NCBI GenBank assembly: GCA_944372365.1
Contig: CALVYP010000001.1
Coordinates: 249,691-313,690, forward strand
Direction of reading: 5' to 3'
Source of the DNA: an uncultured Clostridia bacterium
Lineage (GTDB): Bacteria; Bacillota; Clostridia; Christensenellales; UBA1242
Length of the DNA: 64,000 nucleotides
This document shows, piece by piece, positions 13,001 through 57,958 of the stretch; the stretch's first letter is position 1, and each line of letters opens with the position of its first letter. The position numbers and the translations under genes are program-made. The notes under the pieces were generated by a model. The model was given only the letters and a program-made list of their open reading frames with translations. It searched no databases and was not told the origin of the DNA.

Positions 13001-16000
13001 GAAACTCAAATAATTTCGTGGGAAGGTGTTTCGCAGCAAAATCCAGAATATTTGGTATACTTGGGCGAAGAGTTGCAGCAAACAATCTCCGCTCCGTCAC
13101 AGTCGGGCAGATATGAGTTCAGTGTCAGCGACTATGACTTTTTGCAGCCTGGCGACTATAACTTCTATGTTATTGCAAGAAGCGACAACTCACTGCAAGC
13201 CGATGCTTCGGCCGCCATAATCTTCCACAAAATTTCGCCTGTTTCAAAACTAAGGGTGTTTAGGCAGGGCGACGAATATTTTGCAGACTTCAACATAGGT
13301 TCGGCAGATGTAAACTACATCACTGATATCACAGTCAACGGCAAAAGCATAGGCATAAAAAATCAATTTAAGCTTGATGCCGACGAATTTTCAATTGTTC
13401 TTAAAGGCTCATCATTCAACCAAGACGGCAATCAAATTTTCTTTATTTCAAGCACGCCGTCAGCCTTTACAATCAAGCAGGCACAAATTTCAACCTACCA
13501 GCCAAACACTAAAATTTCAAACGGCACGCTTAGTTGGGATGATTTTTCACCATATGTTTCCGATTGGGCGCTTGTTGGGCAGTTAGACAATTTGAGATAT
13601 GAAGTTGTAATTTACAATCAAGCAAAAGAAGTTGTTAGAACGATTTCGGGCATTCAAACAAACTCATTAAAATTAGACGAGCAGCAACTTGTAAACCTTG
13701 TAAACGGCGATTACACCGCAAGCGTGTTTGCATATTTTGCCGAATACGAAATCTCTTCGCAAGGCAAGGGCTATTGGGGGATTACACAGCTTGTGTCAGA
13801 GCAAAGCGTTAAAAAGCTGGAAAGCGTTTCGCTTTTGCAAGCAAGCATCGACAGCGAGACTTCCACCATTGACAACGAGCTTCAAAAAACATTAAAACTG
13901 CAATGGCAGTTTGACGGAACTTTTACAAGCCAAGTTACCTTTGAAATTTATGTAAACAATGTTTTAGCCGCAACAACCCAGCAGACATCATACGAATTGC
14001 AGCAACAGTTGTTTGATCAGCAGCAAAACAAAGTTTCGGTTGTTGCAACATCAAGCACTGATGTAAAATCGGATGAAGTTTCAATAAATGTTGGCAAATT
14101 TAACGAGTTGCAAGTTTCGGTTGACGACCGCGGCGTGCTTACGATTGCAGATGATTCCGCGCAAGCCGCAGAGCAGGGATATATTGTTGAGATAACGATA
14201 AAACAAGATGGCGGCGACTATGTTCAAACGGCGGTTATCACACAAACATCGCAAAGCATTCAGTCGCTTATCAACGACCACAGCGGGGCTGCAACCATAA
14301 GGGTTACGCACAAAGCAACGCAAGAGGTTTGTCTGCCAGACCCAGCGGTTGCCACAACAAACACAAGGGTTTTGGCTCAGCCACAAATTGTTCAAGATGC
14401 AGAAGGGCTAACTCTTTCAAGCAGCGACGAAGATGTTGTGTTCTATTTGCAATGCGAAGAGAAGCAATTTTCAACGCAGCTTAGCGGAAATTATTTTGCT
14501 TTCCCTGACGATTGGCAAAGCGGCGACTACACGATAATTGTTCACGCGCAAAAGCAGGGGTGCATTGATTCTTGGACGGGTGACAGCGCAAAAACCCTAA
14601 TCAATATTGACAGAATTCAAAATGTAAGCCAAGTTGTCTTTGACAGAGATGAAAGATATCTCGACCATACGCTTTCGTGGGATGCGATCGACAAGGCGGC
14701 AGGTTACCGCATCAGCGTGACAAAAAATTCTTCACTTGTGGGCAGCCAAGAGACAGACCAAACATCAATAAAGCTTTCACAGCTTTTCACGCTTGACGGT
14801 GAAGGTGGAGAATACATAATAACCTTTAAAACGCTGGCTGATTACGCCACAAACAAACAAACCAGCTCGCATGTTTTTGAATTTATAATTTCAGTTCGTG
14901 CAAACTCAATCAGCGATATTCGCGCCGAAGACGGCCTGTTAAGGTTTGACGCTTTATCAACAGGCGCAGGATTCTATTTAAGTATTAAAGACGCGAAAGG
15001 GCAGCAGCATGAAAACCTTCCAGCCGTGCTTGACCCAGATCAAAACTCATATTATGTGGAAGGGCTGACAGGACAGTTGCAAATTGTGCTGAGAGAGCTT
15101 GCCACAGCTCAAAGCTCGCAAACAGCTACTGCTGCGTCGACGATATACATTGACGCGGCAACTCAGCAGCAGGCAATTTACAAGTTGCAAGATTTAAAAT
15201 CTATTTCGGTTGATCCTGAAACAGGCTATTTATATGTTCTAACAGACTATGAAACTGGATCAAGAAAGTTTTATGTAACATATGTTGATGAAGAAAACAA
15301 CTCTCAAACATTGAGAATAAGCTTTAGCGAAGTATCTCAAGGCAGATATAGAGCAAGGGCGATAGACTTGTGCCGACAATTTGCATTGAAAGACGGGCAG
15401 GAATTTAAATTTACAATTTACTCCGTGATTGACGGCAACTTGAAAAGTGACAATGCAGAATTTAGTTTTATATATAGAAAAAGCAACCAAACAGTTGTTC
15501 AAGAAAAGTTAAGCGAAACGCAAGATTATGTTGTCATCAAAGATAATGGCAGCGGACAAGTTAATGAAAATGTGACGGCGATAATTCTTCGCGTGCTTGA
15601 AGGGGGCTCGTGGAAGTACCACACAATCAATGTCGATGATGTCAAAGGCTACTGGATTGAGCACACATTCGAGCAGGGTGGACAAAGCGTGGTTGAGCAC
15701 AGCTTCTCGCTTACGCCAATAGAAGACGAAGGCTATCAATCAACGCCATGCTACGCAATTTGGGTTACAGATCTTCTTAAAAACATGAACGCAGGCTCTT
15801 TTGAATTGCAGGTTGGATATATCACTCAAACACAAGAGCACTACTTTATAGCAAACGACTATAATCAATCGTTTGAATATAAAAAATTAAACGGGCCAAC
15901 AAACTTTACAATAGACCAAGGCAATTTGGTATGGCGCAACGCAGAAGGTGAGCATACCGGCTTTGTAATCAGTTTCGAAAACCAAGGCGACGAGCTGCAA

Positions 16001-19000
16001 ATCTTTTCAAGCTCAAGCGATGCAACCTACTTTATGGGCGAAGACATTCCATACTCTGGCGAATTTGAAGTGGCGTTGCAGGCAGTTTCATATCAAGTGG
16101 GCGTTTTGCCGTCAAACAAATTGTATTATGAGCAAAACAACGTTCGCCAAAAAGTGCGAAAATTGCAAGAGATCGACACAGCCTTAACAATTTCAAACGG
16201 CGTGATGTCGCTTTCGTTTGACGATGAAAGAGAGCTGCCAGCCAAGGACGAAGAAACCTCGGCAGAAGAATATATTCAGCAGCTCGACAGCCTTGAAAGA
16301 AGGCTTCAAACATATTCAAACGGTGACCTGTGGACGGGCTCAACATTCCTGACAAGGCTTTTCGATGACATTTTAAAATATCCGTTTGATTACAAGATTG
16401 AAGAACTTGAAAATGTTAGGTTTAACTTAAAGTTTGTAAACACTCAAACGCAGCAAGAATACATCACTTCGGTGAGCGCGCTCTATCTGCTTTCAAGGCT
16501 TAGCGAAAGCACTCTTACAGCGTTGGATTCTTACATAAAAACGCTTGGAAATGTTCCTGAAAGGGGAAGGTTACAAACTTTTTACAACCTGCTTACCGAC
16601 ACTCATTATTTCACAGGCGTTGCAACCGAAAGCTTGTTGTTTGACGAAATGGGAAGCTCAGGCACATATGGCAAGGTGAGCACAAACAACATTCCGGCAG
16701 GTGAGTATAACATTTACATTCAACAAAAAGGAGAATTAAGCACAAACACAATCAGTTCTGCCTTTACGCTTAAACTTAGCAATATTTCAATTTTGCCATC
16801 ACTGCAAGTTAGAACTGGCAGCCAGTCAACCGCAGGTGAGGCATCAAAATATTACATCAAGTTTATGCCATCAAAAAATGCTCAAGGTGAATATTACAAA
16901 AACTATACCCTTGTTTTGAAAGATAAAAACCTTGAAGAAGGTGAAGCCTATCACCAAATTGCTAAATATGACATAACTTTTGACGGACAAACATGGCAAA
17001 GAACATCTTTTGACGGCGAAAATAAAGTTTTACAAACAGATGAAGACGGGTTTGTTTATATTTCAATAAACGGCACAGATAGCGGCATCATATATGAAAA
17101 CAACATTAAAGACATCTATGGCAAAGCGATGCAGCTGGAAGGGAACGACTTTGCTGCAAACATATTTATAAACGGCACAAACACTTCTTTAAATGGCAAA
17201 ACCGAAGAAGTTTCGGTTGTGTTCTTGCAATTTAACATAAACACCTTAACTTTAGAAAACGGCAAATTCAGTTGGGAAAACTTTACCGTAAGCGGAAAAA
17301 CCTATTCAACCACTGTCGCATATCAACACAGCACCAATCAGCAGGTTCAAGAGATGCCAATGTCTGGGCAGCGCCCAACGCTTTCACTTACATCAACAGG
17401 TGCATACAACTATATTTCATTCCGCACGCAGGGCACGGCAAGCAACTTTGCAATCACCGTTGACAGCCCGCTTTACACAATCAGAAATGTTTATAAACTC
17501 AACTCGCCAAACGTTTCGGTGACCGACGGAAAGTTTAGCATAACCGACACCAACGCAAGCTTTACAGTGCGAGAGTTTTTGATTTCAAACAATGTTTATC
17601 AGCAGATTAGCCGTGGCGAGATGTATGCTCAATCAACACAAGGTGCAAAAAGCATAATCTATCAAACCGGCGTAAATTTGATTTCATCGTCGCAAAGTGA
17701 TAGATATGAATTAGGGCTTAGCGAGAGAGAAGCAAGCATGTTCTATTTTGCAACGGCAGGAGATAGTTTTGAAGTCACAAATTCATCTCTTACCGGCGAC
17801 GATCGTGACGGATATATTATAAACATCAACAGTGACGGCGAATACATCTACCTTCAATCTGACACTGTCAGCACTCCAGCGGCAAAACTTGAAATGTCAA
17901 GCACAATTTCAATAAGCAACGGCAATGTGATGTGGAAAACGGCAGAGCCATTTGGCAGCTTTGACATAGACACCAACAATTTTGCAATTGTTTACGAAGT
18001 TAAAGTTGAATATTACTATCAAACGGCGGGCGACGCTTGGGAGATAAGCAGTCAACACACTCAAACGCTTTACACAACGCAAAATTCTTTAAGCGCAAGC
18101 AATATTGTCGATCCAAACAGTGACGAGTTTAGATACAAAATTATTGTCAAGGCGCACATCTATCAACCTTCCCAAACAGGAAGCATAGTGTCACTGCAGG
18201 GAGACAGATATCAAACCGTCAACAATGTGCAATACTTCAACAATCAAACCTACATTTTGGAAGGAGAGACATATTCTTCAAGGTTGTTTGAAAGGGCGCA
18301 AAAAGTGGAAGACTTTAAGCTTTCTGGCGGCAAAATCACATGGACATATAGTGCTGGCACAACCACGGGCGAAGGCGAAAATCCTCAAAACGAAACTACA
18401 TTTATTGTATACATTGCCGAAGGCTCACGAAACACTCAACTTGAAGGCAGCTGGGAGCAGGCCGGCGACACATATACATTCACTTTAAGTCAAAACAAAC
18501 AGCAGCTTCAAGATGACTTGCTTTACAACTTTGCAATCGTGGCAAAGCAAAACAACAAAATCACATCAAATGTTGTTTACATGTTTGACGGCGCACAAGC
18601 AAGAATTCTTCCCGTGCTTACAGAAGAAGATTTCGCCACCGATCAGGTTGGCGAGCAAAACGGCGGAACACTTAACACAGTTGACTTCTTGTCATACTTT
18701 AAAAAAGCGCCGCTCAGCAACAAAAACCTAATTTCGCTGCAAGTTTCAGCACAGATAAGTGCAACACAAACCTATGAATGCACGATATCATACACTCAGC
18801 ACATTCTTTACATACAGATTGGCGGAACAGACACAGGCCGCGAAAACACGATCGTCTTGCCAGAGCTGAGCCAAGGCGTCAATGTTGTTGTGCTTCCAGT
18901 TCCAACAGCAGATTCTTCAACGCCACTTTTAAGCGCGTATAAACCTACGACATTGCAGCTTAGCTATGCAGACTGGTCAGACACCGATATGGTTTATTTT

Positions 19001-21277
19001 GACGAGCAAGCGCAAACATTCTATTGGACATACGGCGTCAAGTTTGCCGACAGAACAAACGGCGAAACACAGATATTTAAGGATGATCAAGGCGGAATCT
19101 ATGGCTTTGAAGAAGGTCAAACCCTGCCGCTTGAAAGCATAGTGTTGCAGCAAGAGAGTTACATTCCTATAATGTATACATCTCAGGGGCAATATCAAAC
19201 CTACTATGTTGAAATTGCAGGCACGTATTCTCAAATAAGAGATAAAGAAGACGAAGAAGGCGGGCAGGAATACTTAATCTTCACAACTCAAGAAAAGCCG
19301 ATGATGCAACTTCAAGATGGAAAGCTTGTTGATTCAACATTTGTTATGCAGGAAGGCATTGGCTATGGCTATGGCGGAGGCAATTGGGCGGTTAAAGCCA
19401 AGATGCCGTTTGACGAAGAAGAGCAAACCTACTTCGTTCCACAAAACCTAATATCCTATCAAACCGATGAAGAAGGTGTTGTTCAATTCACTGTTTTGCA
19501 AACAACACCTTGGTATGTAGATCAACAAACAGAACAAATGCCTTTGCTTGACGATAAAGTTATTTTAAACATGGCAAGCGCATACAACCCAAGCCTTGCA
19601 TATCAAGAAGTTATAATTGGCGGCGAGCATGTGTTTATTGCAACTGAAAATGTTTATCATTATTTGACGCAAGACGAAAACTTTAATGAAAACATTTCGT
19701 CGGTGCATTTTAAGGTTTCAATCACCACCGAATATAGCTACATAGAAGATAGATACACCTATGAAGTTGTTGATGAGCGCGCTTACAACAATGTGCCGCG
19801 TGGAGAAAAACAAACGCATTTCCTTGACTATAACATAGACGAAGAAGGCATATATGTAAGCAGCTTCCAACCTAACCTTATTGGAGAGATCACGCAATTC
19901 TCTGTTCAAGCAAGAAAATCTCAAAACAACCTTCTCTCGCAGCCGCTAACATGCAAGCAAGATCAGAACATCAGCTTCAGCTTGTTTGATTTGGGTGATG
20001 GCAGCGCAAGCAATCCATACAGGATTGCCAACGAAACGCATTTTGCCAATATGCAATACCGCGTTGAAAAACAGCCATATCATCTCTCTTACAATCAAAG
20101 AAAAACAATAATGCAACGCGATAATTACAATGGAACAACAAAGCCGGTGAAAACCCCAACCGAGTTTACACCTGTGGTTGAAACAGATTCAGTTTACAAA
20201 TTCCAGCAGACGGCAAGCTTGGATTTTGACATCAATGGATTTGTCATTTCTCAACCGTTTGCGGGAAGCTATGACGGAAACGGGTTCAGCATAACTGCAA
20301 ACATCACTTCACTTGCCGAACTTGATGAGGCGGTTGAAACGCTGGTGGCTTCTTCAACAGGAACGCAGACGACAACATTCAATTATGGGGCGTCGCTGTT
20401 TAAAGAGATTGCTTCGGGTGGAACGCTTGAAAATGTTGATGTGGCATTTAACTTTGCCTTTACAAAGGATATGGCAACGGTGCTTGCAAGCGATGGCGCG
20501 TTGGTAAGTGGGCTTGTGTTTGAAAACAATGGCACAATTCAAAATGTTGCTGTAATTTCATCAAATGTAAGCTTTGAAAGTGCGATAGGCGCAGCGGCAA
20601 CGGTTGCAGCTTCGCCGATCATCGCGTTTAACAGACAGGAAGCGCGCGAGCTTTCAAGCGATGTTTTGGTAAGCATCACAAACACATTCACAAGCGGTGC
20701 ACAAAACTTCATGTATGGCGGATTGGTTGCGTTCAACGATTCGGCAAACGCAAAGCTTTTGCTTTCAACCAACAATGGCGCAATCAATGTAAACTTTACA
20801 AGAAACCAAAACGGCGTTGTTATGGCTGGCGGCATTGCAATTTCAAATGTAAATGCAACCATTGAAATGACGATAAACAACGGCGCGGTCAATGCGATGT
20901 CGAGAAGCGGCATTGCCTATGCAGGTGGCATAGCCATCCACAGCACAAGAGGCTCGTTCTATCACAACGCAAACACCGCAAACATATCTGCTTCAAACGC
21001 GGGCGGTATATTATACAGCGCACTAGGCACTCTTTCAACAGGCACGGTTGCAATGGGAAGGGTAAACGGCGCGGTAGACAATTTGTTTGCTGCAACTGCA
21101 ACCTATGCATCTGGCTCTGGCACTAACTACACATATTCAAGCTATTCGCCAAGCCTAGGTTTGCGTTATGAAAAAATTGAAGCAAGCAAAAACATAAATT
21201 GCAGAAGCAGCGATTATATTCTGCAAGTCACCTACAACAACGTCAACAGTTACAGCGTGCAAATTATAGAAAACTAA
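10085..21277 (+). CDS. Giant surface lipoprotein, 3730 residues, with many fibronectin/Ig-like beta repeats
   Basis: The first 30 residues are a lipoprotein signal peptide ending in lipobox LTAC (Cys30). The rest has no membrane segment and no LPXTG motif, so it should be anchored to the outer face of the membrane only by its N-terminal lipid. The body is a long series of diverged beta-sandwich-like units, recognisable by recurring LSW/VSW/ISW strands followed ~10 residues later by Y-x-I/V (TNDGVLSWDRSD, STNSLSWQRETGAEKYILKI, ETQIISWEGV, HTLSWDAIDKAAGYRISV, NGTLSWDDF, NLVWRNAEG). The last ~400 residues change to a GLUG-like region (GDGSASNPYRIANETHFANM, AGSYDGNGFSI). It is expected to be an adhesin or glycan-binding stalk. 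Starts GTG at 10085 with no ribosome site. Confidence 0.9.
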   Translation: MKMQMTKTKISLLSVVTIFVMLAFFCLTACTQKFDYTAGFSQEQVTLEKGQEFNPRDYIEIGDGVSFTSSSQSVLSQTEQQTFVANQSGRAVVSAYDDDIFIDSLQVYVKYQFLTPTNLKMTNDGVLSWDRSDVSVDGKNIAPVYEIKIVEQGEETFVESHTNSFAFDKAGTFTVSVRAQQTDLVSASDFSSEATFYFDLTQGATNFVVESDKTFGSQQATISWNGSQSGYLTIDGITQHVSSTSISHDFSRFEEGERIDVDLVLSSPFGLSKTLSQTIKKLTTPQISVSTNSLSWQRETGAEKYILKISSPASDTSKEVETRQTFSTLEGLGEGVYTITYQAIASAGYLNGEVKSVDQLVGKVKNVDAQIEIEGDSAKITFSTDSVYSRRFVVKQNSMTFTFEFDNQLQDGKYVMTQTFKLQEGDNVFSVQALPTLDDGEFKYQNFTTTYAIGSDEKVFCNAIKVPQTTGLSHSIDENGNSILQFDSNSFANDYQVKINQIAVEDAVVDIGDETTTINLGKITKTKYGQTQSFEIELLATRLPQQDEAVAPSQTTKTLTMLSAPSMNGLNGSRLGQNSYTWRAVGGAKYVFSLFTTDESFVTDEVQPQTDVVLQNSVQDLVAGYYVLQVQSWPLDENNFLPSEEIGSDYFYYAQQLASAPIRIDYDEDVASLAENSGFVLSIQTVEFAYGYTIKVDGVEVGKVFNDLGEQHLLTFNFPADYDFSQNAKSYNITVEAFAENQAQQQIHPSSQSSLVVNKMAMPQDVEVEDGSQIASVKNLDKQATITIQKDGEDIVTGESGQDAKISVKQYDGDFSIRAKVNGYYEFEGFTTNGVVNLDSDFATFMFHRSQTPTMLNYSNQTLSFSHADKATAYHVDITVSSANGSTTRAFETSLLSFNLEEEIAELREGDEVFNSYFTQKTQITLRVYADINLSQDGIYYLPSRYATLKYDPASTELVISKLDKVMLSYDEETQIISWEGVSQQNPEYLVYLGEELQQTISAPSQSGRYEFSVSDYDFLQPGDYNFYVIARSDNSLQADASAAIIFHKISPVSKLRVFRQGDEYFADFNIGSADVNYITDITVNGKSIGIKNQFKLDADEFSIVLKGSSFNQDGNQIFFISSTPSAFTIKQAQISTYQPNTKISNGTLSWDDFSPYVSDWALVGQLDNLRYEVVIYNQAKEVVRTISGIQTNSLKLDEQQLVNLVNGDYTASVFAYFAEYEISSQGKGYWGITQLVSEQSVKKLESVSLLQASIDSETSTIDNELQKTLKLQWQFDGTFTSQVTFEIYVNNVLAATTQQTSYELQQQLFDQQQNKVSVVATSSTDVKSDEVSINVGKFNELQVSVDDRGVLTIADDSAQAAEQGYIVEITIKQDGGDYVQTAVITQTSQSIQSLINDHSGAATIRVTHKATQEVCLPDPAVATTNTRVLAQPQIVQDAEGLTLSSSDEDVVFYLQCEEKQFSTQLSGNYFAFPDDWQSGDYTIIVHAQKQGCIDSWTGDSAKTLINIDRIQNVSQVVFDRDERYLDHTLSWDAIDKAAGYRISVTKNSSLVGSQETDQTSIKLSQLFTLDGEGGEYIITFKTLADYATNKQTSSHVFEFIISVRANSISDIRAEDGLLRFDALSTGAGFYLSIKDAKGQQHENLPAVLDPDQNSYYVEGLTGQLQIVLRELATAQSSQTATAASTIYIDAATQQQAIYKLQDLKSISVDPETGYLYVLTDYETGSRKFYVTYVDEENNSQTLRISFSEVSQGRYRARAIDLCRQFALKDGQEFKFTIYSVIDGNLKSDNAEFSFIYRKSNQTVVQEKLSETQDYVVIKDNGSGQVNENVTAIILRVLEGGSWKYHTINVDDVKGYWIEHTFEQGGQSVVEHSFSLTPIEDEGYQSTPCYAIWVTDLLKNMNAGSFELQVGYITQTQEHYFIANDYNQSFEYKKLNGPTNFTIDQGNLVWRNAEGEHTGFVISFENQGDELQIFSSSSDATYFMGEDIPYSGEFEVALQAVSYQVGVLPSNKLYYEQNNVRQKVRKLQEIDTALTISNGVMSLSFDDERELPAKDEETSAEEYIQQLDSLERRLQTYSNGDLWTGSTFLTRLFDDILKYPFDYKIEELENVRFNLKFVNTQTQQEYITSVSALYLLSRLSESTLTALDSYIKTLGNVPERGRLQTFYNLLTDTHYFTGVATESLLFDEMGSSGTYGKVSTNNIPAGEYNIYIQQKGELSTNTISSAFTLKLSNISILPSLQVRTGSQSTAGEASKYYIKFMPSKNAQGEYYKNYTLVLKDKNLEEGEAYHQIAKYDITFDGQTWQRTSFDGENKVLQTDEDGFVYISINGTDSGIIYENNIKDIYGKAMQLEGNDFAANIFINGTNTSLNGKTEEVSVVFLQFNINTLTLENGKFSWENFTVSGKTYSTTVAYQHSTNQQVQEMPMSGQRPTLSLTSTGAYNYISFRTQGTASNFAITVDSPLYTIRNVYKLNSPNVSVTDGKFSITDTNASFTVREFLISNNVYQQISRGEMYAQSTQGAKSIIYQTGVNLISSSQSDRYELGLSEREASMFYFATAGDSFEVTNSSLTGDDRDGYIININSDGEYIYLQSDTVSTPAAKLEMSSTISISNGNVMWKTAEPFGSFDIDTNNFAIVYEVKVEYYYQTAGDAWEISSQHTQTLYTTQNSLSASNIVDPNSDEFRYKIIVKAHIYQPSQTGSIVSLQGDRYQTVNNVQYFNNQTYILEGETYSSRLFERAQKVEDFKLSGGKITWTYSAGTTTGEGENPQNETTFIVYIAEGSRNTQLEGSWEQAGDTYTFTLSQNKQQLQDDLLYNFAIVAKQNNKITSNVVYMFDGAQARILPVLTEEDFATDQVGEQNGGTLNTVDFLSYFKKAPLSNKNLISLQVSAQISATQTYECTISYTQHILYIQIGGTDTGRENTIVLPELSQGVNVVVLPVPTADSSTPLLSAYKPTTLQLSYADWSDTDMVYFDEQAQTFYWTYGVKFADRTNGETQIFKDDQGGIYGFEEGQTLPLESIVLQQESYIPIMYTSQGQYQTYYVEIAGTYSQIRDKEDEEGGQEYLIFTTQEKPMMQLQDGKLVDSTFVMQEGIGYGYGGGNWAVKAKMPFDEEEQTYFVPQNLISYQTDEEGVVQFTVLQTTPWYVDQQTEQMPLLDDKVILNMASAYNPSLAYQEVIIGGEHVFIATENVYHYLTQDENFNENISSVHFKVSITTEYSYIEDRYTYEVVDERAYNNVPRGEKQTHFLDYNIDEEGIYVSSFQPNLIGEITQFSVQARKSQNNLLSQPLTCKQDQNISFSLFDLGDGSASNPYRIANETHFANMQYRVEKQPYHLSYNQRKTIMQRDNYNGTTKPVKTPTEFTPVVETDSVYKFQQTASLDFDINGFVISQPFAGSYDGNGFSITANITSLAELDEAVETLVASSTGTQTTTFNYGASLFKEIASGGTLENVDVAFNFAFTKDMATVLASDGALVSGLVFENNGTIQNVAVISSNVSFESAIGAAATVAASPIIAFNRQEARELSSDVLVSITNTFTSGAQNFMYGGLVAFNDSANAKLLLSTNNGAINVNFTRNQNGVVMAGGIAISNVNATIEMTINNGAVNAMSRSGIAYAGGIAIHSTRGSFYHNANTANISASNAGGILYSALGTLSTGTVAMGRVNGAVDNLFAATATYASGSGTNYTYSSYSPSLGLRYEKIEASKNINCRSSDYILQVTYNNVNSYSVQIIEN

Positions 21278-35710: not shown

Positions 35711-35774
35711 TCGGGCGAGAAATGTCGCAAACTGGCGCAATTTAATTTATGTGCAAATTTAGACTTTTTTAGAC

Positions 35775-35805
35775 AAAACTCGGAAGTTATCTCCCGAGTT
35801 TTTAT
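35775..35805 (+). terminator. Terminator upstream of spo0A
   Basis: AAAACTCGG / CCGAGTTTT hairpin with a T-rich tail, ending the 34253 transcript. Confidence 0.8.
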
Positions 35806-35898: not shown

Positions 35899-36663
35899 AT
35901 GGAGAAAACCACACAAAGCAAAGGCAAATTGCGCATATACATTGCAGATAAAACCGAAGAAAATTCAATTATAACATATTTTAAAGCAAGCGATAAATTC
36001 ACGCTTGTGGGCTCAAGCCCAAACGGCGAAGATGTTTTAAACGACCTGCCACTACTTAAACCAGATTTTTTGATTATGGAAGTTTTGCTTAGCGGAATCG
36101 ACGGCTTTGAAGTTTTAGAAAAGCTTAAACAAAAAATGCAAAACCAAATGCCAAAGGTTATTTTTGTAACCAATCTTTCTCACACAGGATTTGTTGCCAA
36201 AGCTATGAATGAAGGCGCAAGTTATTTTATGGTTAAGCCGGTTAAGCCAGAAGTGCTTGAAGAGAGAATGTTTGACCTGCTAAATCAAACGCAGCCTTCA
36301 AATGAACATAAGTTCAGCAAGCAGCTTGACGAAAAGATTTCAAACATCTTTATTTCAATCGGCATTCCAGCGCACATAAAGGGCTATCAATTCTTGCGAG
36401 AGGCTGTTAAGCTTGCGGTGGAAAAACCAGAGATAATCGGTTCGATAACCAAACAGCTTTATCCAACCATTGCCGAGCGTTTTGAAACCAGTTCCAGCAA
36501 GGTGGAGCGCGGCATGCGTCATGCAATAGAAGTTGCTTGGAATAGGGGAAAGATTGAAAATATCAACTCTTTGTTTGGGCTTAAAATTTACAACAGCAAC
36601 GAAAAACCTACAAATGGCGAGCTTATTGCACTTATTGCCGACAAAATGATTATGGAAGGCTAA
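35899..36663 (+). CDS. spo0A: Sporulation master regulator Spo0A with a degenerate receiver
   Basis: 254 residues. Receiver domain (~9-125) plus the Spo0A-specific DNA-binding domain (~145-254: ISIGIPAHIKGYQFLREAV, YPTIAERFETSSSKVERGMRHAIEVAWNRG). The receiver keeps Thr91 (FVTNLS) and Lys113 (MVKPVKPE). The phospho-acceptor Asp is Glu61 (FLIMEVLLSG, versus VLVLDIIMP in Bacillus), and the acidic pair is Asp17-Lys18 (IADKTE) instead of two Asp. Normal phosphorylation therefore looks impossible. The DNA-binding half is well conserved, including the helix that reads 0A boxes. AAAGGAGG precedes the ATG. No sigma-H promoter was recognised. Confidence 0.93.
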   Translation: MEKTTQSKGKLRIYIADKTEENSIITYFKASDKFTLVGSSPNGEDVLNDLPLLKPDFLIMEVLLSGIDGFEVLEKLKQKMQNQMPKVIFVTNLSHTGFVAKAMNEGASYFMVKPVKPEVLEERMFDLLNQTQPSNEHKFSKQLDEKISNIFISIGIPAHIKGYQFLREAVKLAVEKPEIIGSITKQLYPTIAERFETSSSKVERGMRHAIEVAWNRGKIENINSLFGLKIYNSNEKPTNGELIALIADKMIMEG

Positions 36664-38610: not shown

Positions 38611-38872
38611 TTGCCGATTAGGTTTTTAACATTTAGCTGAGTTGAGAAAAGTCCGGCGGCGTTATATTTTGTTTTTATTTTTTTGTTATATAAAACAAAA
38701 AGTAAAAATATGTTATAATATGAATTTTTTTGTAATAAAAAAGCGGCATTTGTGTTTAATTTTGTGTGCGATTTTGCTTTTGGTTGGGCTTGGCACTTAT
38801 TTTGGCTTGACGGCGCAGGCATGCCAACCAAATCTTTCGCCAACAGTTGTGATAGACGCAGGGCACGGCGGA
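38611..38872 (+). repeat. 262-bp direct repeat, copy 1 (cwlD promoter and 5' coding end)
   Basis: Aligns with 39782-40043 without a single gap and with 7 mismatches (about 97% identity). It contains the upstream region and the first ~51 codons of cwlD, up to the AGHGG zinc motif, where homology stops abruptly. Confidence 0.95.
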
Positions 38873-38932
38873 GTAGATGTCAAGTTAGGACAGTATATAA
38901 AACAAAAAAGCATATTACCTGATATGCTTTAA
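38720..38932 (+). pseudogene. Truncated copy of cwlD (first ~51 codons)
   Basis: The signal-anchor and first beta strand of the amidase (MNFFVIKKRHLCLILCAILL ... VVIDAGHGG) are present. The sequence then departs into 20 unrelated residues (VDVKLGQYIKQKSILPDML) and a stop. Only the first zinc ligand (His) remains, so it cannot be active. It may still be transcribed from the duplicated promoter region and run into the terminator at 38904. The intact gene is at 39891. Confidence 0.92.
38904..38930. terminator. Hairpin terminator at the end of the toxin/immunity cassette
   Basis: AAAGCATAT-tacctg-ATATGCTTT with an A-run to the left, which is a T-run for the minus-strand immunity gene ending at 38938. 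It lies just past the cwlD homology break. Confidence 0.8.
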
Positions 38933-39781: not shown

Positions 39782-40043
39782 TTGCCGATTAAGTTTTTAA
39801 CATTTAGCTGAGTTGAGAAAAGTCCGGCGGCGCTATATTTTGTTTTTATTTTTTTGTTATATAAAACAAAAAGTAAAAATAAGTTATAATATGAATTTTT
39901 TTGTAATAAAAAAGCGGCATTTGTGTTTAATTTTGTGTGCGATTTTGCTTTTGGTTGGGCTTGGCACTTATTTTGGCTTGACGGCGCAGGCATATCAACC
40001 AAACCTTTCGCCAACAGTTGTGATAGACGCAGGACACGGCGGA
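39782..40043 (+). repeat. 262-bp direct repeat, copy 2 (intact cwlD side)
   Basis: Same length as 38611-38872 and about 97% identical. The sequence between the copies (38873-39781, 909 bp) holds the immunity and toxin genes. After this copy cwlD continues normally. Confidence 0.95.
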
Positions 40044-40580
40044 CGCGATGGCGGCGCGGTGGGCAGAAAGACGGGCGTGACCGAAAGTCAAATCAATTTG
40101 CAGTATGCACAAACACTTAAAGAAATTTTGCAAAGCTTTGGCGTAAATGTGGTTATGACTCGAACCGATTTAAACGGGCTGTATTCGCCGTTTGCCGCCA
40201 ACAAGAAAAAAGACGATATGCAAAAGCGCAAACAAATTATTGACGAAAGCGGTGCCGATTTGGTGGTAAGTGTGCATATGAATGCTTTTCCGCGCTCGTC
40301 AACAAGGGGCGCGCAGGCGTTTTATGCGATGGAAAATTCAAGCGGGGCGGAGCTTGCGCAAAGCGTGCAAAAGCAGCTGCAAAATGTTTCGCAGTATGCG
40401 CACAGCGTTGCTAAGCAAGGCGATTACTATATTTTAAACTGCACTTCGCTGCCGGGGGTGCTTGTTGAGTTTGGGTTTCTTTCCAACGCCGAAGAAGAAT
40501 CCCTTTTGATTGAAAGCACATATCGCCAAAGCATGTGCGAAGCGGTTGCGATGGGCATTTTAAATTTCTATCAAATGTGA
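39891..40580 (+). CDS. cwlD: N-acetylmuramoyl-L-alanine amidase, CwlD type
   Basis: 229 residues. An N-terminal signal-anchor (~10-33) is followed by an Amidase_3 domain. Zinc ligands are His of AGHGGRDGGA, Glu of VTESQINL and His of VSVHMNAF. The catalytic Glu is in LVEFGFLSN. CwlD trims peptides from muramic acid during spore cortex maturation (muramic-delta-lactam formation). No ribosome site precedes the ATG, and a TATAAT abuts it directly. The start is chosen because it begins the hydrophobic segment. An in-frame TTG at 39813 would add a basic, Tyr/Phe-rich stretch. Confidence 0.92.
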   Translation: MNFFVIKKRHLCLILCAILLLVGLGTYFGLTAQAYQPNLSPTVVIDAGHGGRDGGAVGRKTGVTESQINLQYAQTLKEILQSFGVNVVMTRTDLNGLYSPFAANKKKDDMQKRKQIIDESGADLVVSVHMNAFPRSSTRGAQAFYAMENSSGAELAQSVQKQLQNVSQYAHSVAKQGDYYILNCTSLPGVLVEFGFLSNAEEESLLIESTYRQSMCEAVAMGILNFYQM

Positions 40581-43695: not shown

Positions 43696-45990
43696 ATGAA
43701 GTTCTTTGGAAAATTTTATTATGTCTTTCTTGCGGTTGTGTTTTTGGCGCTCTTCTTTATTTTAGAAAATGCTGGCATAAACGGGCTGATCTTTCCATTT
43801 TCGTTTGCCATGCTGTTTGCTCTTGTGTGGGCAAATCAAAAAATTTGGTTGGTTGTGCCCGCCTATCTTATTGCGGCGATAGTTGTAAATCATTCGCTTG
43901 CAGGAATAATCGGTGCGATAGTCTGCGCGGTGATGATTGCTGCGCCGTTTGTTTTGCACACGATTTTTAAAAAGAACATTCAAGTTTGGATGCTGGCAAT
44001 CTATGCGTTTTTAAGCCAAGCGGGCTATATCGGTTTTGCAGCAGCAACCGGAACAAACGCCGTTATTTTTGCCCTTGTGTCTGCCGTGGTCGGCGTGGTA
44101 TTTTTGCTGGGATTTGTCAAGCTTTTTGAAGCGCTTTTTATGCGTGGCTTTGCTTACAGGCTCTCCGCCATTGAGTATGTGGCGGGCGGAATAATTTTAA
44201 TCGGGCTTTCTGCGGGACTTGTAAATTTGGATTTGTATGGCTTTTCGTTTTTGAAACTTTTTGTAAGTTTTGTGCTGCTTGCAATCACATATTGCTCTAA
44301 AAATTATTATTCTGTGTTCATCGCTTCTATTTTGGGGCTGGGAACGCTGCTTTCTGCAAACAATCCCGTCTTCTTTGCGCCGTTTGTGATTTGGGCGCTG
44401 GCAATTTCGCCGTTCAAAACCTATCGAAAATATTTCACCGCACTTGCAATAATTTTGGCGGAGCTTGCGATTGGCTTTTATTTTAATCTTTATTATTCCT
44501 TCGATTGGCTGGGCATTTTGCCGGTTGCGATCAGCGCTTTGGTGTTTGTGGCGATCCCCGACAAGGTTTACGCTATGGTTAAAAGCATATTTGATTTGCG
44601 TGGCGACAGGGCAGCAATCAAAAATGTTGTCAATCAAAATCGAGAACTGCTGCACAGGCGGCTGCTGTCACTGAGCGATGTGTTTGGCGAAATGGACAGG
44701 GTTTTTCGCGGGCTTGTTCGAAAAAACTTAAGCGAAGATGAAGTAAAAAAACTGCTGCGTGATGAGATTATTGCCAGAAACTGCGAAAGTTGCCCAGACA
44801 GAGTGCGCTGCCATCGAACCAGACAGCAAGACACCCTGCGCGTTATGGATGAACTAACTTCCATCGCGTTTGAAAAGGGCAAGGTGACTCTTTTGAATGT
44901 TCCAAGCTATCTTTCTGCCAATTGTTCAAGGGTTAATGGCATAATCTCATCGGCGGCAACGCTGGCAAGGCAGTATAAATCATACAGCGGTATGCTTTCA
45001 AACATCGACACTTCCAAGCTGCTTATTGCCGATCAACTTAAAGGCATATCTTCGGTTATGAAAAACTTGTCGCAAGAAGTTGACCGCGAAATCGCGTTCG
45101 ACGGCAAAAGAGAAGATAAAATTGTTGAAGAGCTGTTGTTTAACGATATTGTTTGCACCGATGCGATTGTTTTTGAAAAGGATTGTCACACTTTTGAAGT
45201 AAATTTGATTGTTCGCTCGCTTGACGCCGACAGCATCAAAATTGCACCAATCGTTGGTAAAATTTGCAAGTGTGACATGGCGGTGACAGATAAATTTGTT
45301 GCATCGAAACCGGGGTTTACATCGTTGTTTTTAAAAACCGCGCCAAAGTTTGATTGCGCGTTTGCAATTTCAAGCACGCCAAAAGCGGGCAGCGAAAAAA
45401 GCGGCGACACGCACTCGATTATGCGCCTAGATGGAGATAGGTTTATGTTTGCAATCTGCGATGGCATGGGCAGCGGAAGCGAGGCAGAGAAAGTTAGCCA
45501 AACATCGATAAGCTTGATTGAAAATTTTTACAAGGCGGGCTTTGACAGCGAGCTTGTGCTTTCGTCAGTCAACAAACTTCTCACTCTGCAAAAGCAAGAT
45601 AGTTTTTCGGCGCTGGATGTTTGTGTGCTTGATTTAAAAAGTGGGCTTGGCGATTTTATTAAGATGGGTGCGCCTTGCGGGTTTGTTGTCAGCGAAGAAG
45701 AATGCAGGCTTGTTCAAAGCGGTGCGTTGCCGCTTGGCGTTGTGGAAAAGGCAAGCCCTGTCACACAAAAAATTGTGATAGGTGGCGGAGATGTGGTTGT
45801 TATGTTTTCAGACGGCGTGGCGGATAGCTTTGCATCCGATCAAAGCATAGGCGACTTCATCAAACAAAACTTTTCGCCCAACCCGCAATCGCTTGCAGAC
45901 GAAATATTAAATCAGGCTCTTGCAAACTGCAATGGCAGGGCGGTGGACGACATGACTGTGCTGGTTGTAAAAATTTTTAACAATCAATAA
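43696..45990 (+). CDS. spoIIE: Stage II sporulation protein E (PP2C phosphatase)
   Basis: 764 residues. About ten membrane helices in the first ~300 residues, a central domain with a Cys cluster (CESCPDRVRCHRTR, ~370), and a C-terminal PP2C phosphatase (~555-764) with CDGMGSGSEAEKVS and MFSDGVADSF and VDDMTVLVVK. In Bacillus, SpoIIE binds FtsZ at the polar septum and dephosphorylates SpoIIAA to activate sigma-F. AAAGGAGTTGAA precedes the ATG. It is followed by tilS, the same order as in the B. subtilis spoIIE-tilS region. Its presence supports a complete forespore programme. Confidence 0.95.
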   Translation: MKFFGKFYYVFLAVVFLALFFILENAGINGLIFPFSFAMLFALVWANQKIWLVVPAYLIAAIVVNHSLAGIIGAIVCAVMIAAPFVLHTIFKKNIQVWMLAIYAFLSQAGYIGFAAATGTNAVIFALVSAVVGVVFLLGFVKLFEALFMRGFAYRLSAIEYVAGGIILIGLSAGLVNLDLYGFSFLKLFVSFVLLAITYCSKNYYSVFIASILGLGTLLSANNPVFFAPFVIWALAISPFKTYRKYFTALAIILAELAIGFYFNLYYSFDWLGILPVAISALVFVAIPDKVYAMVKSIFDLRGDRAAIKNVVNQNRELLHRRLLSLSDVFGEMDRVFRGLVRKNLSEDEVKKLLRDEIIARNCESCPDRVRCHRTRQQDTLRVMDELTSIAFEKGKVTLLNVPSYLSANCSRVNGIISSAATLARQYKSYSGMLSNIDTSKLLIADQLKGISSVMKNLSQEVDREIAFDGKREDKIVEELLFNDIVCTDAIVFEKDCHTFEVNLIVRSLDADSIKIAPIVGKICKCDMAVTDKFVASKPGFTSLFLKTAPKFDCAFAISSTPKAGSEKSGDTHSIMRLDGDRFMFAICDGMGSGSEAEKVSQTSISLIENFYKAGFDSELVLSSVNKLLTLQKQDSFSALDVCVLDLKSGLGDFIKMGAPCGFVVSEEECRLVQSGALPLGVVEKASPVTQKIVIGGGDVVVMFSDGVADSFASDQSIGDFIKQNFSPNPQSLADEILNQALANCNGRAVDDMTVLVVKIFNNQ

Positions 45991-54898: not shown

Positions 54899-54946
54899 GT
54901 GGCATGGTTTTTTCTTGCATTGTACATTTTTTTAAATGGAGTTGAT

Positions 54947-57900
54947 ATGAAAAAACAGTTTGCAAACAACATACATAACAGAACTTTTAGTAATAAGTTT
55001 ATTTTATTCAGCGTTGCGCTGATTGTTTTAGTTGTGTCAATTTTTGCTTGTATAGCAGTTATAGGTAACACATCATCAAATCAAAACTCAACAACTATAA
55101 CAACCGAAGCCGAAGAAGCAACAGGCCCAACCAATACAGCCGGATGGTGGATTGATGAAGGAAGATACAGCATTGATTGGTTCACAAACGCCCAGTCGGT
55201 TGTGATTGATGGCGTAACTTACAAGGCGGGGACTGAACAAAATCCATACATTATTTCAAGCGCGCAGGATCTTGCTGGGCTTTCATGGTTGGTTTACACA
55301 TGCGGGCAATCAGGCAACCCGCTTGTTTCGGGAACAGATTATTCAAGTTATTACACCTTTCGAGGCAAATACTTTAAACAAACTGCAAACATAGACCTTT
55401 CAGAATACTATTGGCAACCTATTGGAACTTACTATAATCGTTCTGGAAGCACTTCTCGACATTACTTTTCTGGCAGTTATGACGGAGGCAGCTACATTAT
55501 TTCTGGTGTTTTCACCCCATCGGGTTCAACAAACGCATATTCTTATCAAGGTTTGTTTGGATATATTTATGCGAATAGTTCTTCTTATCCAATAACAATT
55601 AAAAACATTGGAATAACAAATTCAAACATACAAGGATATCATCAGGTTGGCGGAGTTGTGGGTTATGCTAATGCCTCTTCTGGCACAATTACTATAACCA
55701 ACTGCTATAACACTGGTTCGGTTTCAGGGACAAAAAATTATGTTGGCGGAGTTGTGGGTTATGCTGTTGCTTCTGGTACACTTACAATAACCAACTGCTA
55801 TAACACTGGTTCGGTTTCAGGATCAAGTGAGGTTGGCGGAGTTGTGGGTTATGCTGCTGCTTCTGGTACACTTACAATAACCAACTGCTATAATACAGGC
55901 TCAGTTACAGGGACAGGTAATTATGTTGGCGGAGTTGTGGGTTATGCTTATGCATCTTCTGGCACTCTTACTATAACCAACTGCTATAACACAGGCTCAG
56001 TTACAGGGACAGGTAATTATGTTGGCGGAGTTGTGGGAGGAGTTATTGCAACTCTTTCTGGCAATCTTACTATAACCAACTGCTATAACACTGGTTCGGT
56101 TTCAGGAACAAGTGAGGTTGGCGGAGTTGTGGGAAGAGCTAATGCATCTTCTAGCACAATTACTATAACCAGCTGTTATTATGGTGTGAACTGTTCGCAA
56201 AGCACAGGAGGAATTAGAGGAAGCGATGTTCCTGGACAAGCGACATATGATAGTTCACTTACAACAGAAACGCCCAAAACGCTTTCATGGTATACAACAG
56301 AGGCTAATTGGAATTCAGCCTATCCATGGGAGTTTGAAAATGTGTGGACGATAGATTCAGGTGTAAATGACGGGTACCCAAGTTTCAAGATTAAGTGGTG
56401 GATTGATGAAGGAAGATACAGCATTGATTGGTTCACAAACGCCCAGTCGGTTGTGATTGACGGCGTAACTTACAAGGCGGGGACTAAACAAAATCCATAC
56501 ATTATTTCAAGCGCACAGGATCTTGCTGGGCTTTCTTGGCTGGTTTACACATGCGGGCAATCAGGCAACCCGCTTGTTTCGGGAACAGATTATTCAAGCG
56601 CTTACACCTTTCGAGGCAAATACTTTAAACAAACTGCAAACATAGACCTTTCAGAATATTATTGGCAACCTATTGGAACTTACTATAATCGTTCTGGAAG
56701 CACTTCTCAACATTACTTTTCTGGCAGTTATGACGGTGGGGGCTACACTGTTTCTGGCATTTTCACCCCATCGGGTTCAAGAAACGCATGTTCTTATCAA
56801 GGGTTGTTTGGATATATTTGTGCGAATGGTTCTTCTTATCCAATAACAATTAAAAACATTGGAATAACAAATTCAAACATACAAGGATATACGTATGTTG
56901 GCGGAGTTGTGGGTTATGCTTTTGCCCCTTCTTCTGACACTCTTACAATAACCAACTGCTATAACACTGGTTCGGTCACGGGTAGTTATTATGGTGTTGG
57001 CGGAGTTGTGGGTCAGGCTGTTGTGGGTCAGGCTGGTGTAACTTCTATTTATTCTGGCACAATTACTATAACCAACTGCTATAACACTGGTTCGGTTGAG
57101 GGCGGTAGTAGTGTTGGCGGAGTTGTGGGTTATGCTTTTGCCCCTTCTTCTGACACTCTTACAATAACCAACTGCTATAACACCGGTTCGGTTGAGGGCG
57201 GTAGTAGTGGTGTTGGCGGAGTTGTGGGTGTGGCTGGTGTAAATTCTCGTTTTGGCACAATTACGATAACCAACTGCTATAACACTGGTTCGGTTGCAGG
57301 GATAGAACGTGTTGGCGGAGTTGTGGGTGAGGCTTTTGCATATTCTTCTAGCACCCTTACTATAACCAACTGCTATAATACAGGCTCAGTTACAGGGACA
57401 GGTAATTATGTTGGCGGAGTTGTGGGTCGGGCTGGTGTAACTTCTTCTAGCGCAATTTATATTTCCAAATGCGCTAACCTAGGGGATATTACTTTAACCG
57501 GATCTTCTTCGAGTGTTGGCGGTATTATAGGTTATGTTCAGGTGGGAAGCGCATCAGGAATTTTGCAAGTTGCAAATTGCTATTCAGAAGGCACAATTTT
57601 TGTGCAAGGTGCAAGCGCAACCGTAGGCGGGTTTGTTGGCGGGGCATATGCAAATTATTCCACATATTCGAATGTATATTTTGAGTTTTGTGCGGTTGAC
57701 ATGAATGTTTCAACTTCTGGAAGTGGTTCAATATCAAGCCAAGGTGCATTTTATGGTGGGACATATGTGGTAACAGCAAAAAACAGTTATTCCATATTAA
57801 ATGGTGCGAAATCGTTGACGTCAACAGTTAATGAAATGGACAATAATTTTGCTTACATACTAAATTTTAAAGATGGCAAACCACTCCCTCTGGGGCTGTA

Positions 57901-57958
57901 TGCTATTTCACAGTTTGGCACGGAAACAAACATAGTTGAAAGAATAAATGCGTTATAA
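54947..57958 (+). CDS. GLUG-repeat surface protein, 1003 residues
   Basis: Starts at ATG 54947 (AATGGAGTTGAT site); the frame is open upstream to 54899. Signal-anchor helix (~18-42). The body consists of two near-identical blocks of ~165 residues (WWIDEGRYSIDWFTNAQSVV ... FSGSYDGG), each followed by GLUG repeats of ~31-38 residues (VGGVVGYAxxSSGTLTITNC, YNTGSVTG), 14 repeats in all, ten with the exact NCYNTGSV core. The repeats should form a beta-helix rod. There is no LPXTG or C-terminal helix, so attachment relies on the N-terminal segment. DNA-level repeat identity allows recombination between units. Confidence 0.9.
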   Translation: MKKQFANNIHNRTFSNKFILFSVALIVLVVSIFACIAVIGNTSSNQNSTTITTEAEEATGPTNTAGWWIDEGRYSIDWFTNAQSVVIDGVTYKAGTEQNPYIISSAQDLAGLSWLVYTCGQSGNPLVSGTDYSSYYTFRGKYFKQTANIDLSEYYWQPIGTYYNRSGSTSRHYFSGSYDGGSYIISGVFTPSGSTNAYSYQGLFGYIYANSSSYPITIKNIGITNSNIQGYHQVGGVVGYANASSGTITITNCYNTGSVSGTKNYVGGVVGYAVASGTLTITNCYNTGSVSGSSEVGGVVGYAAASGTLTITNCYNTGSVTGTGNYVGGVVGYAYASSGTLTITNCYNTGSVTGTGNYVGGVVGGVIATLSGNLTITNCYNTGSVSGTSEVGGVVGRANASSSTITITSCYYGVNCSQSTGGIRGSDVPGQATYDSSLTTETPKTLSWYTTEANWNSAYPWEFENVWTIDSGVNDGYPSFKIKWWIDEGRYSIDWFTNAQSVVIDGVTYKAGTKQNPYIISSAQDLAGLSWLVYTCGQSGNPLVSGTDYSSAYTFRGKYFKQTANIDLSEYYWQPIGTYYNRSGSTSQHYFSGSYDGGGYTVSGIFTPSGSRNACSYQGLFGYICANGSSYPITIKNIGITNSNIQGYTYVGGVVGYAFAPSSDTLTITNCYNTGSVTGSYYGVGGVVGQAVVGQAGVTSIYSGTITITNCYNTGSVEGGSSVGGVVGYAFAPSSDTLTITNCYNTGSVEGGSSGVGGVVGVAGVNSRFGTITITNCYNTGSVAGIERVGGVVGEAFAYSSSTLTITNCYNTGSVTGTGNYVGGVVGRAGVTSSSAIYISKCANLGDITLTGSSSSVGGIIGYVQVGSASGILQVANCYSEGTIFVQGASATVGGFVGGAYANYSTYSNVYFEFCAVDMNVSTSGSGSISSQGAFYGGTYVVTAKNSYSILNGAKSLTSTVNEMDNNFAYILNFKDGKPLPLGLYAISQFGTETNIVERINAL
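55145..55645 (+). repeat. Internal duplication of the GLUG gene, copy 1 (~500 bp)
   Basis: Matches 56396-56896 at a constant offset of 1251 bp without gaps and with few mismatches. It covers the block WWIDEGRYSIDW to NSNIQGY. Confidence 0.88.
56396..56896 (+). repeat. Internal duplication of the GLUG gene, copy 2 (~500 bp)
   Basis: Second copy, offset 1251 bp (417 codons). Differences are scattered, for example TATTACACC versus GCTTACACC. The duplicated unit includes the head block, while the GLUG tracts behind each differ in number and spacing. Confidence 0.88.

Follow-up and report, generated by a model that had tools for sequence, protein, structure and literature searches.

Can endospore formation be started by a Spo0A that has lost the aspartate at which this regulator is normally phosphorylated? 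Textbooks place the decision to sporulate at the phosphorylation of Spo0A, and histidine kinases are thought to relay the condition of the cell to this step. The window analyzed here, a 64,000-nucleotide stretch of DNA from an uncultured Clostridia bacterium, encodes a full-length Spo0A with glutamate at this very position. An earlier note, based on the letters of the sequence, had placed Glu61 at the phosphorylation site and Lys18 in the acidic pocket, and had suspected a Spo0A that is not run by a phosphorelay. The reading preferred here, with a probability of roughly 0.7, is that of a Spo0A which lacks the aspartate, works independently of phosphorylation and is set by protein level or partners, in a genome-reduced predicted spore-former that lacks two-component signaling. 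The whole evidence comes from genomes that look metagenome-assembled.

A Spo0A with glutamate at the phospho-acceptor site

The protein scores 228.7 bits against the Spo0A equivalog TIGR02875 (spore_0_A), above the curated cut-off of 200, and in the Pfam profile search its Response_reg domain reached 57.1 bits (over 30.2) and its Spo0A_C domain 131.3 bits. A receiver is followed by Spo0A_C, and both are predicted to fold as known (Pfam, AlphaFold2, Foldseek): the receiver model has a mean pLDDT of 91.7 and an rmsd of 1.5 Å to 1qmp, and the predicted DNA-binding domain lies within 1.3 Å of B. subtilis 1lq1, with 54% identity over 112 columns. Residue positions were read off alignments with two solved structures, the Spo0A receiver of Geobacillus (1dz3) and the DNA-binding domain of B. 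subtilis (1lq1).

35899..36663, plus strand: spo0A-like gene, receiver and Spo0A_C, 254 amino acids (TIGR02875, Pfam; predicted fold matches 1qmp/5wq0 and 1lq1)
35929..36282, plus strand: receiver, about residues 11-128, aspartate-less, predicted intact (beta/alpha)5 fold (Pfam stretch 26-123, AlphaFold2, Foldseek)
35947..35949, plus strand: Asp17 codon, first acid of the pair (kept in 73/73 genus sequences)
35950..35952, plus strand: Lys18 codon, replacing the second, metal-binding Asp (alignment to 1dz3)
36079..36081, plus strand: Glu61 GAA codon, phospho-acceptor position (alignment; Glu in 72/73 genus sequences)
36091..36093, plus strand: Ser65 codon, Pro (D+4) in canonical receivers (alignment)
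36169..36171, plus strand: Thr91, conserved Thr/Ser switch residue (Ser or Thr in every aligned sequence)
36235..36237, plus strand: Lys113, conserved receiver Lys (invariant in 79/79 family sequences tested)
36334..36657, plus strand: Spo0A_C DNA-binding domain (131.3 bits; Foldseek against 1lq1)

In the receiver, ADKTEE of the window protein aligns on ADDNRE of 1dz3, and DFLIMEVLLSGIDG aligns on DILLLDIIMPHLDG, so that both residues named by the earlier note are confirmed, as is its statement that the protein retains Thr91, Lys113 and the DNA-binding domain. Its claim that the acidic pair is lost holds for one half only, as the second acid has given way to Lys18 but Asp17 is retained. Because Glu61 occupies the phospho-acceptor site, the protein is not classed among the canonical phospho-activated Spo0A proteins; with its Response_reg homology and no Asp at the phosphorylation site, it belongs to the aspartate-less receivers (ALR). 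It shares the Thr and Lys of canonical receivers (Thr91, Lys113), and it has Asp17-Lys18 in place of the Asp-Asp pair for the metal ion. Ser65 may be comparable to the sof-class suppressor alleles of B. subtilis spo0A, which alter residues near Pro60.

Kinases and receivers in the genome

The genome comprises 862,550 bp in 8 contigs, and its completeness is rated 100%. It contains a single Response_reg domain, that of the window Spo0A, and the earlier note's failure to see a spo0F-like gene thus extends to the whole genome. Profile searches for HisKA and HATPase_c_5 gave no match, while the same HMMs match in control genomes, and the three HATPase_c proteins are GyrB, MutL and SpoIIAB, none of which is a kinase. 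The own genome as searched has thus neither a histidine kinase for Spo0A nor the parts of a phosphorelay. Among 197 genomes sampled from the family as a whole, 23 have HisKA, none of them belonging to the 18 that represent the genus, and most family genomes have a single receiver domain. In 3 of 21 sampled genus genomes, however, a kinase-like HATPase adjoins a response regulator, which counts against the preferred reading.

A second canonical Spo0A, which the earlier note had named as a finding that would speak against its claim, was looked for and not found. Three genes of the genome encode Spo0A_C, but no other full-length Spo0A is present, as the remaining two encode stand-alone DNA-binding domains without a receiver:

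L002:1453-1845, minus strand: stand-alone Spo0A_C, 131 amino acids, beside murC
L003:1378-1857, minus strand: stand-alone Spo0A_C, 160 amino acids, beside a YsxC-like GTPase

Two or three Spo0A_C genes per genome are present in most family members, and the two stand-alone proteins could compete with or modulate Spo0A. As separate observations, a genome of genus g3 (G002) carries two similar full-length spo0A genes (L072 and L073, on contigs C77 and C76), and the window has, at 10085-21277, an ORF of 3730 amino acids that begins like a lipoprotein and matches no Pfam family, in a genome of 0.86 Mb, and, at 54899-57958, a protein of 1019 amino acids with GLUG repeats that is probably surface-exposed.

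Fixation and recurrence of the glutamate

Whether glutamate is fixed in a clade, as the earlier note had asked, can be answered for the genus: of 73 distinct Spo0A proteins, 72 have Glu at position 61 and 1 has Asp. The codons are GAA (50), GAG (22) and GAT (1): synonymous change is free, whereas only one lineage has retained the single-base change to Asp. Among the same 73 sequences, Asp17, Asp68, Phe110 and Lys113 are invariant and residue 91 is Ser or Thr, and position 18 can be N, K, S, T, A or I, with an acid in rare members only. Pairwise dN/dS in the genus is about 0.08 for the receiver and about 0.01 for the DNA-binding domain, both rough values as dS is near saturation. This conservation pattern, together with dN/dS, indicates that the receiver is under selection, though not as a canonical phospho-receiver. 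A close relative (G187, loci L008/L093) is back to Asp61 (GAT), still with Lys18, one receiver domain and no HisKA.

Beyond the genus, 79 Spo0A proteins of the family, a set that leaves out genus g42, comprise 25 with Glu, 34 with Asp and a broken acidic pair, and 20 with an intact triad. The intact triad is found in 23 of 35 Spo0A proteins from other families of the order, and Pro at D+4 in 30 of these 35 versus 26 of the 79. Glu occupies the phospho-site in the family genera g1, g20 and g6 and in some members of four other sampled families; on the Spo0A tree of the order, a quick gene tree with the pocket columns left out and SH-aLRT as its only support, at least 8 changes between Asp and Glu are needed, at least 5 of which are forced by well-supported branches. 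The Glu-type sequences of the four other families (L200, L206, L207, L209, L211 and L220) come mostly from larger genomes.

HisKA is absent alongside all 25 Glu-type proteins of the family, but also alongside most Asp-type proteins (as counted in a phylogenetically clustered set), and the loss of kinases is therefore insufficient to predict Glu. That most family members keep Asp, though most are without HisKA, counts against the preferred reading, since Asp is evidently not quickly lost when the kinases are gone.

A genus with a receiver-less Spo0A

In g42, a sister genus within this family, the genomes give strong Spo0A_C matches (up to 146 bits), and in at least six of them a Response_reg search found no receiver domain anywhere; of the other g42 genomes, G130 has a regulator adjoining a kinase and G058 one very weak receiver match. 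The five g42 proteins that were read have about 170 amino acids, of which about 55 residues of predicted helix precede a canonical Spo0A_C:

L244:1324-1833, plus strand: receiver-less spo0A of g42, Spo0A_C without receiver
L245:1480-1995, minus strand: receiver-less spo0A of g42, Spo0A_C without receiver
L248:1480-1986, minus strand: receiver-less spo0A of g42, Spo0A_C without receiver
L250:1480-1989, minus strand: receiver-less spo0A of g42, Spo0A_C without receiver
L255:1480-1989, minus strand: receiver-less spo0A of g42, Spo0A_C without receiver

As in-frame stops lie upstream and the contigs run on to both sides, the receiver has been cleanly lost and not cut off by a contig end. In the AlphaFold model of the receiver-less Spo0A the N-terminal helices are of low confidence and are not relied on.

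Spo0A-box-like sites upstream of spo0A and spoIIE

Boxes were counted within 200 nt upstream of spo0A as TTCGACA or TCGACAA, which is the classical 0A box in reverse. As allowing one mismatch across the entire window produced more chance hits than could be used, counting was limited to upstream regions with shuffled controls. Such boxes precede spo0A at 40 of 70 loci of the genus (shuffled mean 1.7, maximum 6) and at 40 of 59 loci of the family's other genera (shuffled mean 0.7, maximum 4), and upstream of spoIIE a box occurs at 6 of 8 loci (shuffled mean 0.45, maximum 3), all these counts coming from related species and hence not being independent. The TTCGACA-type boxes lie mostly at -110 to -140 from spo0A and almost never in the opposite orientation. 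The receiver-less spo0A of g42 is preceded, at about 60 nt, by CGACAAAA-like boxes, and in the window the boxes upstream of spo0A are two copies of the variant TTAGAC:

35759..35777, minus strand: pair of Spo0A-box-like sites in tandem, spaced by 10 nt, upstream of spo0A; plus strand TTAGACTTTTTTAGACAAA
43603..43631, minus strand: two Spo0A-box-like sites upstream of spoIIE, 20 nt apart

This orientation and position are hard to explain otherwise and point to autoregulation through a Spo0A that presumably still reads its old site, and the conserved one-way boxes favor a control by amount through such putative autoregulation.

Sporulation genes

The cascade that Spo0A would have to switch on is well represented, with spoIIE lying 7 kb downstream of spo0A:

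43696..45990, plus strand: spoIIE, stage II sporulation protein E, 764 amino acids (TIGR02865 377 bits over the full length, below the cut-off of 490.8; PF07228 104 bits)
39813..40580, plus strand: cwlD-like spore-cortex amidase (182 bits to TIGR02883, whose cut-off lies at 221.55)

A short ORF at 38642-38932 of the window repeats the N-terminus of the CwlD-like protein, as if it were a truncated duplicate. Outside the window there are the clusters SpoIIAA-SpoIIAB-SigF and SpoIIGA-SigE-SigG as well as SigK, SigH and SpoIVA, the last of which is found in 97 of 98 family genomes. SigE, SigF, SigH, SpoIIE, SpoIIGA, SpoIIAA and CwlD score under their curated equivalog cut-offs, as is expected for a divergent lineage, and the sporulation genes were named by best match and operon order. 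On this set, made up of SigH, SigF, SigE, SigG and SigK together with SpoIIAA, SpoIIAB, SpoIIGA, SpoIIE, SpoIVA and CwlD, the bacterium is a predicted spore-former.

Proposed mechanism and alternatives

Read at the sequence level, the genome combines a glutamate kept at the phospho-acceptor position and a broken metal pocket with the lack of any kinase or second receiver, and it keeps the DNA-binding domain and the early cascade. As histidine kinases are missing, Glu is fixed at the phospho-site and the early spore genes are kept, sporulation probably starts here without phosphorylation. The receiver would no longer be a phosphate switch and may be retained as a folded part for interaction or dimerization, in which Glu61 probably pairs with Lys113. 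Unphosphorylated Spo0A would bind the TTCGACA-type boxes upstream of spo0A and spoIIE, and the entry into sporulation would be set mainly by the amount of Spo0A, through autoregulation and probably with SigH; as an alternative input, some protein or ligand may act on the receiver. The kinases were probably lost first, followed by the decay of the pocket, the fixation of Glu and, in one genus, the loss of the whole receiver. That such a phosphate-free circuit is workable is suggested by sad67, an engineered constitutive Spo0A of B. subtilis, which supports the start of sporulation given a second condition (PMC4689505).

The suspicion of a Spo0A not run by a phosphorelay is thereby supported, from the lack of kinases and other receivers, from a Glu that is fixed and recurrent, from the receiver-less g42 and from the intact early genes. 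Of the modes that the earlier note had listed (constitutive activity or control by ligand, level or partner), the phosphorelay-free class as a whole is supported and the boxes favor level, and no single mode is singled out. Somewhat better than even are the chances of the wider claim that a family of gut Clostridia with genomes of about 1 Mb starts endospores largely without two-component signaling, having lost the kinases, fixed Glu repeatedly and independently and, in one genus, dropped the receiver, with Spo0A acting via abundance and autoregulation.

The closest competitor overlaps with this and differs in giving Glu an activating role: Glu61 would mimic the phosphorylated state, Spo0A would be permanently active and dimeric, and gating would take place downstream or by promoter strength only. 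Glu at the phospho-site does activate some response regulators (PMC4395418), it has been reached repeatedly on the Spo0A tree, and it is retained together with Lys113, Ser/Thr91 and an aromatic residue at 110. However, in B. subtilis Spo0A the change from Asp to Glu alone does not render the protein constitutive, according to work cited in PMC4395418, which is why the case is not rested on phosphomimicry; the activity of ChxR is not abolished when Asp or Ala replaces its Glu (PMC4395418); G187, which has neither HisKA nor another receiver, has returned to Asp61, and g42 manages without a receiver at all. Phosphomimicry is thus a serious possibility that falls somewhat short of even odds.

It is also conceivable that a phosphodonor still acts, be it an undetected or unassembled kinase, acetyl phosphate, or a modification of Glu, of Ser/Thr91 or of another residue. 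In favor of this are an assembly split into 8 contigs, a kinase adjoining a regulator in a few members of the genus, the retention of Asp in most of the family, and the methylation or phosphorylation of Glu that has been suggested for aspartate-less receivers (PMC4395418). This is nevertheless unlikely with a completeness estimate of 100%, with searches for HATPase_c, HATPase_c_5, HisKA and Response_reg that yielded no kinase here and have HMMs that match in control genomes, and with the second metal-binding acid gone.

Still less probable is a dying sporulation program with Spo0A as its decaying relic. The small genome would fit, as the cultured spore-formers of a 2012 survey have genomes above 2.3 Mb with Candidatus Arthromitus at about 1.5 Mb as the only exceptions (PMC3533761), and 0.86 Mb is far below both; yet the DNA-binding domain and the receiver evolve at the low dN/dS given above, SpoIVA is nearly universal in the family, the SigF operon, the SigE/SigG operon, SpoIIE, SigK and SigH are intact, and the boxes upstream of spo0A are conserved. 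A sequencing or assembly error at codon 61, or contamination by a foreign Spo0A paralogue, can practically be dismissed, as nothing was found in its favor, Glu is fixed genus-wide through both GAA and GAG and recurs in dozens of assemblies obtained independently from different animals, spo0A shares a contig of 344 kb with spoIIE and gyrB, and the genome holds no other full-length Spo0A.

The preferred reading of a Spo0A working without phosphorylation makes this lineage a natural experiment, in which the kinase input is missing, the sporulation genes are under selection and the genomes are far smaller than those of all cultured spore-formers surveyed in 2012. It offers a test of Spo0A level alone as a driver, of a non-phosphate role of the receiver and of the smallest working sporulation circuit, and predictors that expect kinases or large genomes may miss such spore-formers.

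Comparison with known systems

Aspartate-less receivers as such are already known. A literature search, with most subscription journals and preprints outside its scope and therefore weak as evidence, found no aspartate-less Spo0A in a kinase-free predicted spore-former and nothing useful on D56 variants of Spo0A, and it is this combination that appears to be the new part.

Like the Spo0A of Bacillus and Clostridia, the window protein consists of a receiver and Spo0A_C, keeps the Thr and Lys, is 54% identical to B. subtilis in the DNA-binding domain and has box-like sites upstream; unlike in these, Glu stands for the phospho-Asp, Lys for the second acid and Ser for the Pro at +4. Whereas the former are activated by a phosphorelay or by orphan histidine kinases, there is neither a kinase nor a Spo0F-like receiver in this genome; of 48 spore-formers surveyed, Erysipelatoclostridium ramosum was the only one without any orphan kinase (PMC6136694).

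The closest match at the level of residues is with the ALR regulators. In a survey of aspartate-less receivers, Glu was the commonest replacement, the first acid was kept, the second lost and the Lys kept (PMC4395418), and like in ChxR and RitR, the phospho-Asp is replaced with the same residue pattern and a kept receiver fold, the latter predicted here (PMC4395418). Unlike ChxR and RitR, the window Spo0A is a predicted top developmental switch, and the whole kinase repertoire is missing. With sad67 of B. subtilis it would share phosphate-independence, as proposed here, and the capacity to start sporulation given a second condition (PMC4689505), but sad67 is a laboratory allele, whereas here a natural Glu is fixed genus-wide and a natural receiver-less form exists in g42. 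Finally, Candidatus Arthromitus (1.5-1.6 Mb; PMC3533761) is likewise an uncultured gut spore-former, which is a prediction in the present case, with a reduced genome, and the genome described here is about half that size.
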